Origin: Winogradskyella algicola
GTDB lineage: Bacteria > Bacteroidota > Bacteroidia > Flavobacteriales > Flavobacteriaceae
Assembly: GCF_005869935.1 (NCBI RefSeq)
Contig: NZ_SZQF01000004.1
Coordinates: forward strand, 124,001-188,000
Direction: 5' to 3'
Length of the DNA: 64,000 nt
Part shown: positions 12,244 to 38,468 of the stretch, piece after piece
How the letters are laid out: each line of letters begins with the position of its first letter
How positions within the stretch are numbered: the stretch's first letter is position 1
Program-made: the position numbers and the translations under genes
Notes under the pieces: model-generated
Seen by the model: the letters and a program-made list of their open reading frames with translations, nothing else
What the model was told of the DNA's origin: nothing
Databases searched by the model: none

Positions 12244-12671
12244 AAGTTAGGTTAAGTTTTCTGGGTACAAAGTGTTGTCATTTTTGGGGCTGACCTATTG
12301 TACGCTTGTAAGCGCGAAAAATACGTGTAATGAAGATGAAACACAAAAAAACACGATGAAATACACGTAATGTTAACATTTTAAAACAATTTGTATTCTT
12401 AATCGTACAAAAAAGACCTCAAAAAGAGGTCTTTTTCCCAAATTGAAATTTCGAAAACATTACAGCCTCAACAATAATGTTCCTTAACCTGAAACTCCAT
12501 ATTGTTGTTTTCCTTCTTGGAAAAACATAGCTTTCGATAAATAAAATATTAAGAGGGAAAGTGTATGATAATTGGGAGGGAAATTGAAAATCAATACACA
12601 ATAACTAAAATTAATTGATGATTTTCTTATCTGCAAATGAAAAAGATAAACGGACAAAAATCTTAACAATT
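12244..12671. other. 428-base non-coding stretch between adhesin genes
   Basis: It contains the terminator at 12409-12436 and, next to the start at 12243, an inverted pair TACGTGTA (12322-12329) and TACACGTA (12362-12369). Short open frames on the minus strand here resemble no family. No clear TAnnTTTG promoter was found. The rest shows nothing recognisable. Confidence 0.5.
12409..12436 (-). terminator. Intrinsic terminator after the CARDB-like gene
   Basis: AAAAAGACCTC pairs perfectly with GAGGTCTTTTT around a 5-base A loop. On the minus strand the hairpin is followed by TTTTTTGTAC. It lies about 235 bases past the stop at 12672 and is the likely end of the three-gene group starting at 20465. 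Confidence 0.8.
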
Positions 12672-33744: not shown

Positions 33745-33857
33745 CGTATAATCGTAAGTTACGGATTAAAGTTAAAATAATTTTCGTTTAAGTACTTACG
33801 CGCGCAATTCCGAGTGAATTCGGACGTAGTCGAATCCGCCGTAGTTGCGATTATACG
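33745..33857. repeat. Imperfect inverted repeat with GC-rich structured centre (attC-like)
   Basis: The left arm 33745-33764 (CGTATAATCGTAAGTTACGG) matches the reverse complement of the right arm 33839-33857 (CGTATAATCGCAACTACGG) with few differences. The 74-base centre is richer in G+C than its surroundings and has smaller hairpins (CCGA facing TCGG; ATTCG facing CGAAT). The right arm contains the nuclease gene's stop codon, and GTTAGGT (33860-33866) next to it fits the GTTRRRY core of integron attC sites. The matching core is not present at the left end. Confidence 0.6.
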
Positions 33858-34552
33858 TTGTTAGGTACTGGCTTTAATTCCATTGACTTTTTAATAGTCT
33901 CAATAACGTTTTCAATTTTTTCTCTAATTTCTTTTCCAGTAAACCTCAAACAAACAAATCCTAAATTTTGTAATTCTCGGTCAATATTTCTGTCACGTAA
34001 TGCTTGATATTCAGTTCTTTCGTGATAAGTGTGTCCATCTGCATATATGCAAATCTTTTTGTCGGAAGTCTCAATGTAAAAATCAGGTAAAGTCAAAATC
34101 GTTTTTCTGTCAACTTGAAATTCTTTCGAATATCCTGTTCCATCTTTTCGTATTCTCCTTTGTAATTCGGAATCAATATTTGAGTTTTTCAAGGCAACGT
34201 AAAGTTTTTGCTCTAAAGGACTTTGGCAAGTATAAATACAATCAAAACAGACTAAATTCTTTTGGGGACAATTTTTGCAAATTTTTTCACTCTCTTGATA
34301 GTCAGAGATTTTTTCAGCTTCTTCTATTGAACAATTGAATTTTTCAGCAATTTCTTTAAATCCAAGTACATCATTTAGCTCATTTCTAAACTTGATTAAG
34401 TCTTTTCTATGAGCAATATGTGATAAATCCCATTTTTGATTCTTTTCCTCAATTTGAATTAAGAAGCTTTCACTATATTTATTTTCGTTGAGTCCTCTAA
34501 AAATTTTTCTTTCTTGAAGTATTTTTGAAACTGAGATTGGTATTCTTGCCAT
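33851..34552 (-). CDS. Vsr/DUF559-like PD-(D/E)XK endonuclease fold protein with Cys cluster
   Basis: 233 residues. The C-terminal ~120 residues have the very-short-patch-repair/DUF559 pattern: SPLEQKLYVAL (Glu), TLPDFYIE, ICIYADGHTYHERT (Asp, His) and RDRNIDRELQNLGFVCLRFTG. The N-terminal half is helical with a Cys cluster, CKNCPQKNLVCFDC plus YTC (about 92-110), probably a zinc site. Predicted to cut DNA or RNA; the biological role is unknown. It is a single gene with no methylase beside it, so it is not a classic Vsr. Lone position between conserved genes, and the inverted repeat over its stop codon, suggest horizontal acquisition (inference). Confidence 0.75.
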   Translation of the reverse strand: MARIPISVSKILQERKIFRGLNENKYSESFLIQIEEKNQKWDLSHIAHRKDLIKFRNELNDVLGFKEIAEKFNCSIEEAEKISDYQESEKICKNCPQKNLVCFDCIYTCQSPLEQKLYVALKNSNIDSELQRRIRKDGTGYSKEFQVDRKTILTLPDFYIETSDKKICIYADGHTYHERTEYQALRDRNIDRELQNLGFVCLRFTGKEIREKIENVIETIKKSMELKPVPNNV

Positions 34553-34649: not shown

Positions 34650-35465
34650 TTAAACCGCTACATCATACTCGCGTAAAGCATCGTTCAAAGAAGTTTTCTT
34701 ATCTGTACTTTCCTTACGTTTTCCAATAATAAAAGCACAAGGTACTTGGTATTCTCCTGCTGCAAATTTCTTAGTATAACTTCCAGGAATTACTACTGAA
34801 CGCGCAGGCACTCTACCTTTCATTTCTACAGGTTGATCACCTGTTACATCTATAATTTTAGTGCTCATAGTTAATACCACATTAGCACCAAGTACTGCTT
34901 CTTTTTCTACATGTACTCCTTCTACAACAATACAACGGCTACCAATAAAAGCACCATCTTCAATAATAACTGGTGAAGCTTGTAATGGTTCTAAAACACC
35001 ACCAATTCCAACGCCACCAGAAAGGTGTACATTTTTTCCAATCTGAGCACAACTACCAACAGTTGCCCAGGTGTCTACCATTGTACCTTCATCTACATAA
35101 GCGCCAATGTTAACATAACTTGGCATCATAATAACACCTTTAGAGATATAGGCTCCATGTCTTGCTACAGCATGCGGAACAACTCTAATGCCTTTTTCCA
35201 TATAGTTGCGTTTCAATGGTATTTTGTCGTGATATTCAAAAATACCAACCTCGTGTGTTTCCATTTTCTGAATAGGAAAGTAGAGTACAACCGCTTTTTT
35301 AACCCATTCGTTTACTTGCCAGCCATCTTTAGTTGGTTCTGCTACTCTGAGTGTACCAGCGTCAATGAGATCAATAACACTTTTTATAGCATCTATGGTT
35401 ACATGGTTGGTTAACAAAGAACGATCGTCCCAGGCATTTTCTATAACAGTTTGTAGTTGTTTCAT
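34650..35465 (-). CDS. dapD: 2,3,4,5-tetrahydropyridine-2,6-dicarboxylate N-succinyltransferase
   Basis: 271 residues, the normal length. The N-terminal helical part (VIENAWDDRSLL) is followed by a left-handed beta-helix of hexapeptide repeats, with the family blocks PSYVNIGAYVDEGTMVDTWA, VGSCAQIGKNVHLSGGVGIG and AFIGSRCIVVEGV. It succinylates tetrahydrodipicolinate in the lysine/diaminopimelate pathway in the cytoplasm. A TATCTTTG box lies 16 bases before the ATG. It faces away from ruvX across a 365-base interval holding the tandem RNA-like units. Confidence 0.95.
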   Translation of the reverse strand: MKQLQTVIENAWDDRSLLTNHVTIDAIKSVIDLIDAGTLRVAEPTKDGWQVNEWVKKAVVLYFPIQKMETHEVGIFEYHDKIPLKRNYMEKGIRVVPHAVARHGAYISKGVIMMPSYVNIGAYVDEGTMVDTWATVGSCAQIGKNVHLSGGVGIGGVLEPLQASPVIIEDGAFIGSRCIVVEGVHVEKEAVLGANVVLTMSTKIIDVTGDQPVEMKGRVPARSVVIPGSYTKKFAAGEYQVPCAFIIGKRKESTDKKTSLNDALREYDVAV

Positions 35466-35481: not shown

Positions 35482-35489
35482 CAAAGATA
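35482..35489 (-). promoter_or_regulatory. -7 element upstream of dapD
   Basis: Minus strand TATCTTTG, perfect TAnnTTTG, 16 bases before the dapD ATG. Confidence 0.55.
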
Positions 35490-35528: not shown

Positions 35529-35670
35529 ATGTGACTTAATCCAAAACGCTGTGTCTCAATAACATTAAATGCGATGTAGATTTATTTCATGTAAGTTTAT
35601 CTGAGAATTTAATTAATAGCTAATTACGAAAACTCCTCTCCCCTTAAATTGAGGAGTTTTCTTTTTTTTT
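35529..35670 (+). ncRNA. Candidate small structured RNA, unit 1 of a tandem pair
   Basis: This unit and the next one share ATGTGAC (35529), GTGTCT (35551), GATTTATTT (35579) and an identical 17-base block at 35609-35625. A terminator hairpin begins 3 bases after that block. Between the blocks the unit can fold AGAT (from 35578) against ATCT (near 35600) with an inner stem. The 17-base block itself has AATTA and TAATT arms around ATAGC. No coding frame is conserved between units. No convincing TAnnTTTG promoter was found upstream, so the 5' end is a guess. Confidence 0.55.
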
Positions 35671-35773
35671 GAAAAAAATGTGACCATTTAAAAGATATGG
35701 TGTCTTAATGATGTAATTAACGTGATTTATTTATAGAGGGTAATAAAATCAACGACTTAATTAATAGCTAATT
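35609..35773 (+). repeat. 17-base exact direct repeat (35609-35625 and 35757-35773)
   Basis: TTAATTAATAGCTAATT occurs identically at both positions, 148 bases apart. In both cases a terminator hairpin starts 3 bases later. Confidence 0.8.
35628..35670 (+). terminator. Intrinsic terminator of unit 1
   Basis: GAAAACTCCTC pairs perfectly with GAGGAGTTTTC across a 12-base loop, followed by nine T residues on the plus strand. Confidence 0.85.
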
Positions 35774-35810
35774 CTAAAAACGCTTCTTTTTTATTAAGAA
35801 GCGTTTTTTT
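35678..35810 (+). ncRNA. Candidate small structured RNA, unit 2 of a tandem pair
   Basis: ATGTGAC (35678), GTGTCT (35700, again 22 bases on), GATTTATTT (35724) and the identical 17-base block (35757-35773, 79 bases on versus 80 in unit 1) repeat the layout of unit 1. TGATTT pairs with AAATCA here, where unit 1 pairs different bases at the matching place, so structure seems kept while sequence changes. Ends in its own terminator. A riboswitch-like attenuator for ruvX is an alternative, but ruvX has its own promoter box after this terminator. Confidence 0.55.
35776..35810 (+). terminator. Intrinsic terminator of unit 2
   Basis: AAAAACGCTTCTT pairs with AAGAAGCGTTTTT across a 7-base loop, followed by further T residues. 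Its stem is unrelated in sequence to that of unit 1. Confidence 0.85.
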
Positions 35811-35817
35811 ATTACAC

Positions 35818-35825
35818 TATCTTTG
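35818..35825 (+). promoter_or_regulatory. -7 element immediately before ruvX
   Basis: TATCTTTG, perfect TAnnTTTG, 5 bases before the ruvX ATG and just after the unit 2 terminator. A leaderless start is likely. No clear -33 box: that position is occupied by the terminator stem. Confidence 0.6.
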
Positions 35826-35830
35826 CAGCA

Positions 35831-36244
35831 ATGGGAAGAATTTTAGCCATAGATTACGGTACAAAGAGAACGGGTTTAGCAGTTACAGACCCTATGCAAA
35901 TTATTGCATCGGGATTAACAACTGTTGAGACTAAAGAATTAATTCAGTATTTAAAAGCTTATATTAATTCTGAAGATGTGGAAAAATTTGTTGTGGGCGA
36001 ACCTAAACAGATGGATAACACTGCTTCAGAGAGTGAAGTGCATATTCAGAAGTTTTTAGAAAAACTGCAAAAAGAAATTCCACAAATCCCTGTGGTGCGT
36101 GTAGATGAACGTTTTACTTCTAAAATGGCATTTCAAACTATGATAGACAGTGGTCTAAAGAAAAAACAAAGAAAGAATAAGGCACTTGTAGATGAAATAA
36201 GTGCAACCTTAATTTTGCAGAGTTTTTTGGCTTCAAATTTTTAA
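35831..36244 (+). CDS. ruvX: Holliday junction resolvase RuvX / YqgF
   Basis: 137 residues, usual size. RNase H-like motifs: ILAIDYGTKRTGLAVTDP (first Asp), FVVGEPKQMDNTASE, VVRVDERFTSKMA (second acidic site) and KKKQRKNKALVDEISATLIL (last Asp). Known roles for the family are 16S rRNA 5' processing and putative junction resolution. First gene of a plus-strand set with def, DUF5606 and mazG. The -7 box is so close to the ATG that the transcript probably has almost no leader. Confidence 0.94.
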   Translation: MGRILAIDYGTKRTGLAVTDPMQIIASGLTTVETKELIQYLKAYINSEDVEKFVVGEPKQMDNTASESEVHIQKFLEKLQKEIPQIPVVRVDERFTSKMAFQTMIDSGLKKKQRKNKALVDEISATLILQSFLASNF

Positions 36245-38237: not shown

Positions 38238-38429
38238 TTGTTTGCCATTCTGTATTTGTTTTAGAATCTGATAATGTTAAAATTATCCCAAAACGAAATA
38301 TGGAACATCCAAACAGAAATTCCCCACGTAAATAAAGTGTATAAAAGCAAAACGTTTTTATAATCTTAGTAGGAAATCTTAATTATTATTAAGCGGTTGT
38401 AATTAAGGTTAATTTAGTTTAGTTAGGAC

Positions 38430-38468
38430 AAAACCCATCTGTTAGTAACAGATGGGTTTTGGTTTTTA
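38430..38468 (+). terminator. Intrinsic terminator between mazG and the DUF349 gene
   Basis: AAAACCCATCTG pairs perfectly with CAGATGGGTTTT around TTAGTAA and runs into GGTTTTTATC on the plus strand. It also reads into TTTTGTCC on the minus strand, so it may serve both convergent genes. The remainder of 38238-38429 shows no other feature. Confidence 0.8.

Follow-up and report, generated by a model that had tools for sequence, protein, structure and literature searches.

Tandem predicted small RNA genes between dapD and ruvX of Winogradskyella are headed by promoters of the ECF sigma type

Small RNAs transcribed under the control of ECF sigma factors are already a known kind of regulator. MicA, RybB and MicL of the enterobacteria are Hfq-dependent, whereas Hfq was not found in Winogradskyella (PF17209 matched in 0 of 31 genomes, and in 5 of 14 named control genomes). 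Like the two predicted RNAs described here, which we call A and B, they are sRNAs attributed to an envelope-stress sigma factor, several to a genome (PMC11005410). FoxI and FoxJ, the sigma-E-dependent sRNAs of Fusobacterium nucleatum, resemble A and B in being two sRNAs whose -35 and -10 promoter boxes are common to the gene of their own ECF sigma factor, and their host, like Winogradskyella, has a low GC content, lacks Hfq and has an envelope stress regulon; in FoxJ a stretch of C residues in a predicted hairpin loop serves as the seed, comparable to the loop of type A (PMC11005410). FoxJ differs in its length of ∼156 nt and in having once been annotated as the 5' UTR of ylmH, and the portions of that report used here know targets such as fomA for the two RNAs and do not describe them as tandem copies (PMC11005410). 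These likenesses, as well as those to MicA, RybB and MicL, are of description, not of sequence.

Within the bacterial family of Winogradskyella, the sRNAs Rfp11 and Rfp18 of Flavobacterium psychrophilum can be compared with A and B, by description only. Rfp11 is listed behind promoter SM6, an ECF sigma/anti-sigma pair that itself lies behind SM6 is thought to regulate such promoters, and Rfp18 is needed for metalloprotease expression (PMC9723704). SM6, with its CGT box and with T9SS and Band-7 genes downstream (PMC9723704), differs from the promoter described below, whose regulon looks osmotic or envelope-related. For SigX of Pseudomonas aeruginosa, control by CfrX, by the channel CmpX and by the porin OprF has been proposed (PMC8999054), and the likeness of gene content to the sigma locus described below is notable, since a small ORF and an MscS-like channel adjoin the sigma gene and an OmpA-family gene carries the promoter; the parts were compared by content, not homology. 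The gene order differs, and the portions of the P. aeruginosa reports used here name no SigX-dependent sRNA (PMC8999054, PMC7641640). In the open-licence literature we found no mention of this sRNA family, its sigma factor or its promoter, and nothing on the locus or on a SigX-like system in Bacteroidetes. New features are the tandem pair of varying copy number, its joint absence with the sigma factor, and a possible pairing between A and a third RNA, C.

The window, a stretch of 64,000 nucleotides from Winogradskyella algicola, contains dapD and ruvX separated by a gap of 365 bases, inside which lie two plus-strand units 148-149 bases apart (Table 1). The first-pass annotation had described these as two tandem, related, non-coding units, and both their sequence and the cross-matching of the type A and type B models confirmed this. 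It had also noted that a 17-base block, TTAATTAATAGCTAATT, is identical in the two, 80 and 79 bases on from the start of ATGTGAC, as we found, and that a terminator begins exactly 3 bases after it; this distance is 2-3 bases, depending on which pair is counted first. No gene explains the units, in agreement with the earlier reading: over 106 such units the longest ORF of the RNAs had a median of 9 and a maximum of 19 codons, and the conserved stretch of A formed by the block and its 5' flank, AATTTAATTAATAGCTAATT, has stop codons in all three frames. On this evidence the locus would comprise two tandem paralogous sRNA genes of ∼105-110 nt each, every one with its own promoter and its own terminator. 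On the other side, a 233-aa ORF adjoins dapD (window 33851-34552, minus strand), and its end resembles, by eye, a small endonuclease-type protein.

Table 1. Features of the dapD-ruvX locus (window positions) and of two related loci elsewhere in the same genome. The window sequences belong to the build sets of models R2 (type A) and R1 (type B).
Feature	Position	Strand	Basis
dapD, flanking gene	34650..35465	-	name as in first-pass annotation
TATCTTTG, sigma-A -7 box of dapD	35482..35489	-	sequence
ECF-sigma-type promoter, unit 1: TGTGAC (35530-35535), N16, TGTC (35552-35555), TCA	35530..35558	+	pattern match, one mismatch
Predicted sRNA type A (unit 1), ∼110 nt; start from promoter geometry, +/- 3 nt	35560..35670	+	model R2, 115 bits
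Near-invariant block UUAAUUAAUAGCUAAUU of RNA A	35609..35625	+	sequence, alignment of units
RNA A intrinsic terminator: 11-bp stem, C-rich loop UCCCCUUAAAUU, U run	35628..35669	+	stem covariation
ECF-sigma-type promoter, unit 2: TGTGAC (35679-35684), N16, TGTC (35701-35704), TTA	35679..35707	+	exact match
Predicted sRNA type B (unit 2), ∼104 nt; start inferred, +/- 3 nt	35709..35812	+	model R1, 98 bits
B hairpin TGATTT/AAATCA, arms 35723-35728 / 35746-35751, AGAGGG in loop at 35735-35740	35723..35751	+	alignment
Second copy of 17-nt block, in RNA B	35757..35773	+	sequence
RNA B intrinsic terminator: 13-bp stem, loop of 7, U run	35776..35812	+	sequence
TATCTTTG, sigma-A -7 box of ruvX	35818..35825	+	sequence
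ruvX, flanking gene	35831..36244	+	name as in first-pass annotation
RNA C (predicted), just 3' of apbE-like gene (name by eye)	L168 1501-1610 = G000:C37:224909-225018	+	
ECF sigma gene	G000:C38:190878-191468	-	Pfam Sigma70_r2 and r4_2

ECF sigma promoters have a -35 element ending in AC, a fixed 16-base spacer and a -10 box with GTC. The sequence ATGTGAC was found at 35529 and 35678, with GTGTCT 22 bases later in both units (35551 and 35700), exactly as the first-pass annotation had described, but it had been taken for a feature of the RNA, and judged by its sequence the pair is an ECF-type promoter that lies outside it. Because the promoter is outside the RNA, each RNA should measure ∼105-110 nt, and not the 135-140 assigned earlier. 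The promoter pattern of the units was TGTGAC-N16-KGTC(T/A)TA, and when one -35 mismatch and a spacer of 15-17 were permitted, 129 distinct regions upstream of ruvX yielded 106 promoter-headed units, located in 59 of them. Among these, the first box was TGTGAC in 98, AGTGAC in 6 and CGTGAC in 2, and the spacer to the KGTC box was 16 bases long in 101, 15 in four and 17 in one, with variable bases between the two boxes. Searching the window by itself with two mismatches permitted gave 3 matches where 3.1 were expected, both unit promoters being exact there. A Sigma-70 promoter scan, which is uninformative for this phylum, gave 0 promoters in the gap and chance level around it.

A strong terminator follows each unit promoter after ∼100 nt. 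The hairpin of A, at 35628-35661, consists of GAAAACTCCTC and GAGGAGTTTTC around 12 bases, and that of B, at 35776-35808, of AAAAACGCTTCTT and AAGAAGCGTTTTT around 7, each with a T run after it, so both hairpin terminators noted earlier were reproduced. In 103 of the 106 units we found a stem of 9 or more uninterrupted pairs with a T run; shuffling two-base blocks five times gave 0 of 106 each time. Neither terminator was listed by a generic terminator scan of the window; that of A was missed because its loop of 12 exceeds the limit of 8, and that of B probably because its T count is too low. The type B model also gave weak matches in the window at 12406-12498 (minus strand, 32.5 bits) and at 38363-38465 (plus strand, 29.5 bits), the second overlapping a strong terminator at 38429-38461, and both are probably terminators only.

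The position of the units, upstream of ruvX and in the same direction in the window and in homologous gaps, with the end of the last terminator 19 bases ahead of the ruvX start codon in the window, is what might be seen if they were cis-acting tandem attenuators, or a stress-inducible read-through module, for ruvX. However, every unit has a promoter of its own and nearly all have the strong terminator, ruvX keeps a sigma-A box downstream of the last terminator, as the first-pass annotation had pointed out (the consensus of the -7 box being TAnnTTTG; PMC9723704), genomes that have no units retain ruvX with a TATCTTTG-like box, and the copy number ranges from 0 to 5. A role in cis thus appears very improbable, and independent sRNA genes remain the preferred reading.

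The upstream units, type A, have the near-invariant stretch and a terminator loop containing UCCCC or a near variant, and those adjoining ruvX, type B, have AGAGGG in a hairpin loop and a terminator that in most starts with ACGCTTC. The type A model detected unit 2 (E 2.8e-6) and the type B model detected unit 1 (E 9.6e-5), and because the models detect each other's unit, we regard A and B as paralogues. Among 39 two-unit regions, 30 were labelled A then B, the other 9 had one unlabelled unit (in L009 and L014 solely through the removal of an identical copy), and the order B then A occurred in none. After 3 identical copies were dropped, the 106 units comprised 37 A, 50 B and 16 unlabelled; the A alignment has 38 rows (the 37 minus L123 and L130 unit 1, plus three unlabelled units added by eye), the B alignment has 50, and 15 rows were omitted from both. 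The 17-nt block was exact in 11 of the 50 aligned B units, and with up to 2 mismatches it was expected 0.20 times per shuffled window, two or more copies being seen in 2 of 100 shuffles.

The first-pass annotation took the units for a structured RNA family in which stems change yet still pair, and the family is indeed conserved and terminator-ended, but covariation was found mainly in the terminator stems. Both units folded more stably than their shuffles, with z scores of -3.3 for unit 1 and -2.9 for unit 2, terminators included. Both-sided changes were seen in 12, 7 and 3 sequences at three pairs of the A terminator stem, and in 4 sequences at one pair and 1 at three of the B terminator stem. 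Relatives keep the inner stem proposed for unit 2, TGATTT/AAATCA, and show some compensatory changes in it (3 of 6 pairs changed on both sides, in 7 cells, with 90.8% of cells paired), and the one proposed for unit 1 is weaker (2 of 5 pairs, in 3 cells, with 87.0% paired). When pairing partners were slid by 1-3 columns, every covariation measure dropped for A and for B. Covariation lay beyond all 500 shuffles on five of five measures for B, whose hairpin was drawn by eye from the alignment also used to score it, and on three of five for A, whose pair-count and pair-type measures were not beyond them (44 and 154 of 500), and related sequences may beat such shuffles even when there is no structure. 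RNAalifold alone predicted just the terminator stems in both types. The helix around AGAGGG had 6.5 pairs with its own arms, 6.2 with arms swapped between genomes and 5.5 when shuffled, a weak signal because the region is A+T-rich, and the fixed-register count for this hairpin was better than the arm-swap test. Taken together, the alignments suggest covariation that rests mainly on the terminator stems, with a modest contribution from the B hairpin and little from the A inner stem. RNA A as a whole had a predicted unpaired probability of 0.44 and RNA B one of 0.37; by comparison, the value was 0.89 in the loop of A, 0.73 in AGAGGG, 0.60 in the block of A and 0.46 in the copy of that block carried by B. 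Pairing of A with B was considered and set aside, as the energy within a genome (-23.3 kcal/mol) gave no signal relative to that between genomes (-23.2) or in shuffles (-24.1).

A 311-base query was matched in 46 of 60 genomes of the genus at E <= 0.001, and the closest named ruvX loci were those of Winogradskyella. Homologues in relatives, whose absence would have spoken against the first-pass annotation, were present at dapD-ruvX in 49 of the 58 Winogradskyella genomes in which ruvX was found (G023 and G029, with no ruvX found, were left out): the gap held 0 units in 9 genomes, 1 in 13, 2 in 35 and 5 in 1, and some one-unit genomes hold a second, further mutated promoter (G043). Rfam, which the first-pass annotation had proposed to search, offered no counterpart, as no family reached its gathering score in the 64-kb window (Rfam 15, 0 matches) and nothing at E <= 10 was convincing, the best sub-threshold match being Yfr10 (30.5 vs 43) at 35612-35672. 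Beyond named Winogradskyella, promoter-headed units occupied the same site in Ichthyenterobacterium magnum, two Psychroserpens records, Flavobacteriales ALC-1 and 33_180_T64, and same-site units with RNA parts of neither type were seen in a Lacinutrix MAG, Flavobacteriaceae S0862 and a Bacteroidetes MAG; none of the examined Algibacter, Formosa, Tenacibaculum and Polaribacter loci contained the promoter pattern. Family-wide, the type B model matched in 65 of 249 genomes at E <= 0.01, and 5 of 29 inspected loci, our own excluded, were promoter-backed, one of them in the same genus. The remaining promoter-less matches look like chance terminator hits, and, judged from these searches, the sRNA family looks lineage-restricted.

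In the genome with five units (G019, locus L058), four type-B-like units come after type A, and three of these are nearly identical and spaced 231 bases apart, as a recent tandem amplification would produce. Unit-free gaps retained TTTGTGAG in 6 of 9, TTGTGAC in one and neither in two, about at the former promoter position, which is as expected if these are decayed relics. Tandem arrangement and variable copy number would also fit a functionless element of mobile or repeat origin, a reading to which we give hardly any credence, because the genome of the window has a single full unit match, at the dapD-ruvX site, beside weak partial matches elsewhere that were inspected in part, all 29 loci of the best-match relatives (L009-L037) hold dapD and ruvX, and the presence of units tracks a sigma factor, as described below. 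No sign of mobility of the units was seen.

The exact promoter pattern occurred at 7 sites in the genome of the window, compared with 1 for a reversed control, with one of these 42 bases ahead of an ECF sigma gene (Table 1). Among 48 matches to this gene the best 30 were inspected, and all 30 loci have a unit-type promoter in front of it. In a departure from the enterobacterial case, the best match of the sigma factor among 83 NCBIfam families was SigX, with RpoE lower; against the SigX equivalog PRK09640 it scored 101.6 bits, below the cut-off of 194. A 57-aa ORF that overlaps the end of the sigma gene was present in all 30 loci (for example L267 3219-3392, minus strand) and had no Pfam hit, and its position makes it a candidate anti-sigma factor, comparable to CfrX of P. 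aeruginosa. An MscS-like channel gene comes next in the genome of the window, and among the 30 loci, whose sequences are short, a strict channel motif was recognised in 14.

The sigma gene was present (E <= 1e-60) in 48 of 60 genomes of the genus, 5 of the 48 matches containing one in-frame TAA. Across the 58 genomes, 46 had both units and sigma, 9 had neither, 3 had units but no intact sigma, and none had sigma without units (Fisher p 2e-8, uncorrected for phylogeny). The exact motif was found at 228 sites in the 48 sigma-bearing genomes, each with at least one, compared with 9 for the reversed control, and it was absent from 10 of 12 sigma-less genomes, a comparison that ignores shared ancestry. 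Among the three exceptions, G025 had no sigma match even at 1e-15, G039 (93% complete) had just ∼30% identical paralogues, and G027 holds a sigma fragment (residues 3-66, 67% identical). The exact motif is gone from the G025 genome, whose single recognised promoter has CGTGAC, which is not alone proof of decay because a CGTGAC unit is present too in G058, which has the sigma gene. From the shared promoter and the co-occurrence, we infer that this ECF sigma factor reads the unit promoters.

Genes behind the same pattern were surveyed at 95 of 233 exact sites, from the genome of the window and chosen relatives, with most known sRNA and sigma sites omitted. Downstream were RNA C (12), a LysM protein (11), ruvX units (10), a PAS-like protein (10), MscL (7), DUF3078 (7), sigma (6), DUF4230 (5) and an SRPBCC-like 153-aa protein (3), and, at one site each, an OmpA-family protein, an M48 peptidase, DUF2853 and an unnamed protein (L183); 20 of the 95 had another or no feature, and some of these lie within coding sequence. 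The PAS-like and SRPBCC-like names were given by eye, a 50-residue piece of the former and the latter having no Pfam hit. In the genome of the window, the M48, DUF2853, DUF3078 and DUF4230 sites carry one mismatch, and an OmpA-family gene has the promoter. Channels, cell-wall-binding proteins and outer-membrane proteins in this set suggest a regulon of osmotic or envelope stress. The MscL genes lie behind the ECF promoter in seven relatives (L269, L270, L275, L291, L358, L383 and L386), and there was none among the exact or one-mismatch matches of the genome of the window. Members of the PAS-like family have IALExSNVGxWxW near their start (L271, L356, L359, L368, L371, L375, L377, L381, L385 and L390), and the promoter pattern ends 13-18 bases ahead of the start codon in 9 of the 10.

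RNA C, found in the genome of the window (Table 1) and in L273, L276, L283, L295, L350, L376, L382, L384, L393, L395 and L400, is a shorter predicted transcript behind the same promoter pattern. Because GCTATT close to the start served as the criterion for assigning a site to C, the conservation of C is partly built in, and 8 other sites without a downstream ORF lack these letters. Of its 12 sequences, 8 have GCUAUUAAU at the 5' end (the other 4 have variants), 8 have GCTATTAAT exactly, and all lead into a hairpin that has 3 or more G-C pairs and a T run, free of mismatches in 8 and with a single one in 4. The core of C is complementary to AUUAAUAGC, the most conserved block of RNA A, and in 10 of the 11 genomes whose locus has two units the longest perfect match between C and A falls within the conserved block of A; in the twelfth genome, the longest match of C falls in its single, unlabelled unit. 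Fractions of shuffles doing as well were 0.02 to 0.16 in the ten, 0.003 in the twelfth and 0.44 in the exception, and 0 to 37% of shuffles equalled the duplex energy, so that single matches are mostly within the reach of shuffles, the sequences being A+T-rich. Their shared location suggests that the matches have meaning, and we treat them as a lead. A three-RNA circuit under a mechanosensing-type sigma factor, with C acting as a sponge for A or A silencing C, in either case without Hfq, is a speculative extension that we think rather unlikely.

Because their promoters match that of an envelope-stress sigma factor of the same genome, A and B probably supply the regulatory RNAs of a response to envelope or osmotic stress. 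We consider it likely that they are trans-acting sRNAs, driven by the sigma factor at such stress, that tune envelope mRNAs by pairing. Stress of the envelope or an osmotic shift would release the ECF sigma factor, which would then transcribe the sRNAs A, B and C, a few genes for envelope proteins and channels, and its own operon (sigma, the 57-aa ORF and the MscS-like channel). RNA A would pair with envelope mRNAs through its exposed C-rich loop and the UUAAUUAAUAGC block, and B through its AGAGGG loop. Hfq-assisted pairing would not be available, since Hfq was not found, and both may act without it, like FoxI and FoxJ. A crude screen of the genome of the window for complements of the B loop (TTWCCCTCT) gave 46 sites, compared with 49 in the control, and no enrichment; 6 of 45 were near a possible start, below the 22% seen at arbitrary positions of the same loci. 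This lack of enrichment, and RNA bodies that are largely variable in sequence and length, would be expected if A and B were by-product transcripts of no function, whose terminators shield ruvX from sigma-driven transcription. We regard that as improbable, since near-invariant blocks are kept within the RNAs across the genus, AATTAATAGCTAATT is present in the Psychroserpens and Ichthyenterobacterium units as well, the B hairpin keeps its pairing despite changed bases, and entire units have been duplicated, five of them standing in G019. Functional, trans-acting sRNAs therefore remain the interpretation that we favor.

Small RNAs are little studied in this bacterial group, and the sRNA arm of an ECF sigma factor seems hardly to have been tested in Bacteroidota, the nearest case in the portions of the literature used here being Rfp11, which is listed behind a promoter of the ECF type (PMC9723704). 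In dozens of Winogradskyella genomes the sequence allows a sigma gene to be named together with its motif, its regulon and its sRNAs, and there are natural sigma-less relatives from which the motif and the sRNAs have gone too. This combination would make it directly testable whether sRNA arms originate repeatedly in ECF sigma regulons, and how such RNAs act without Hfq.
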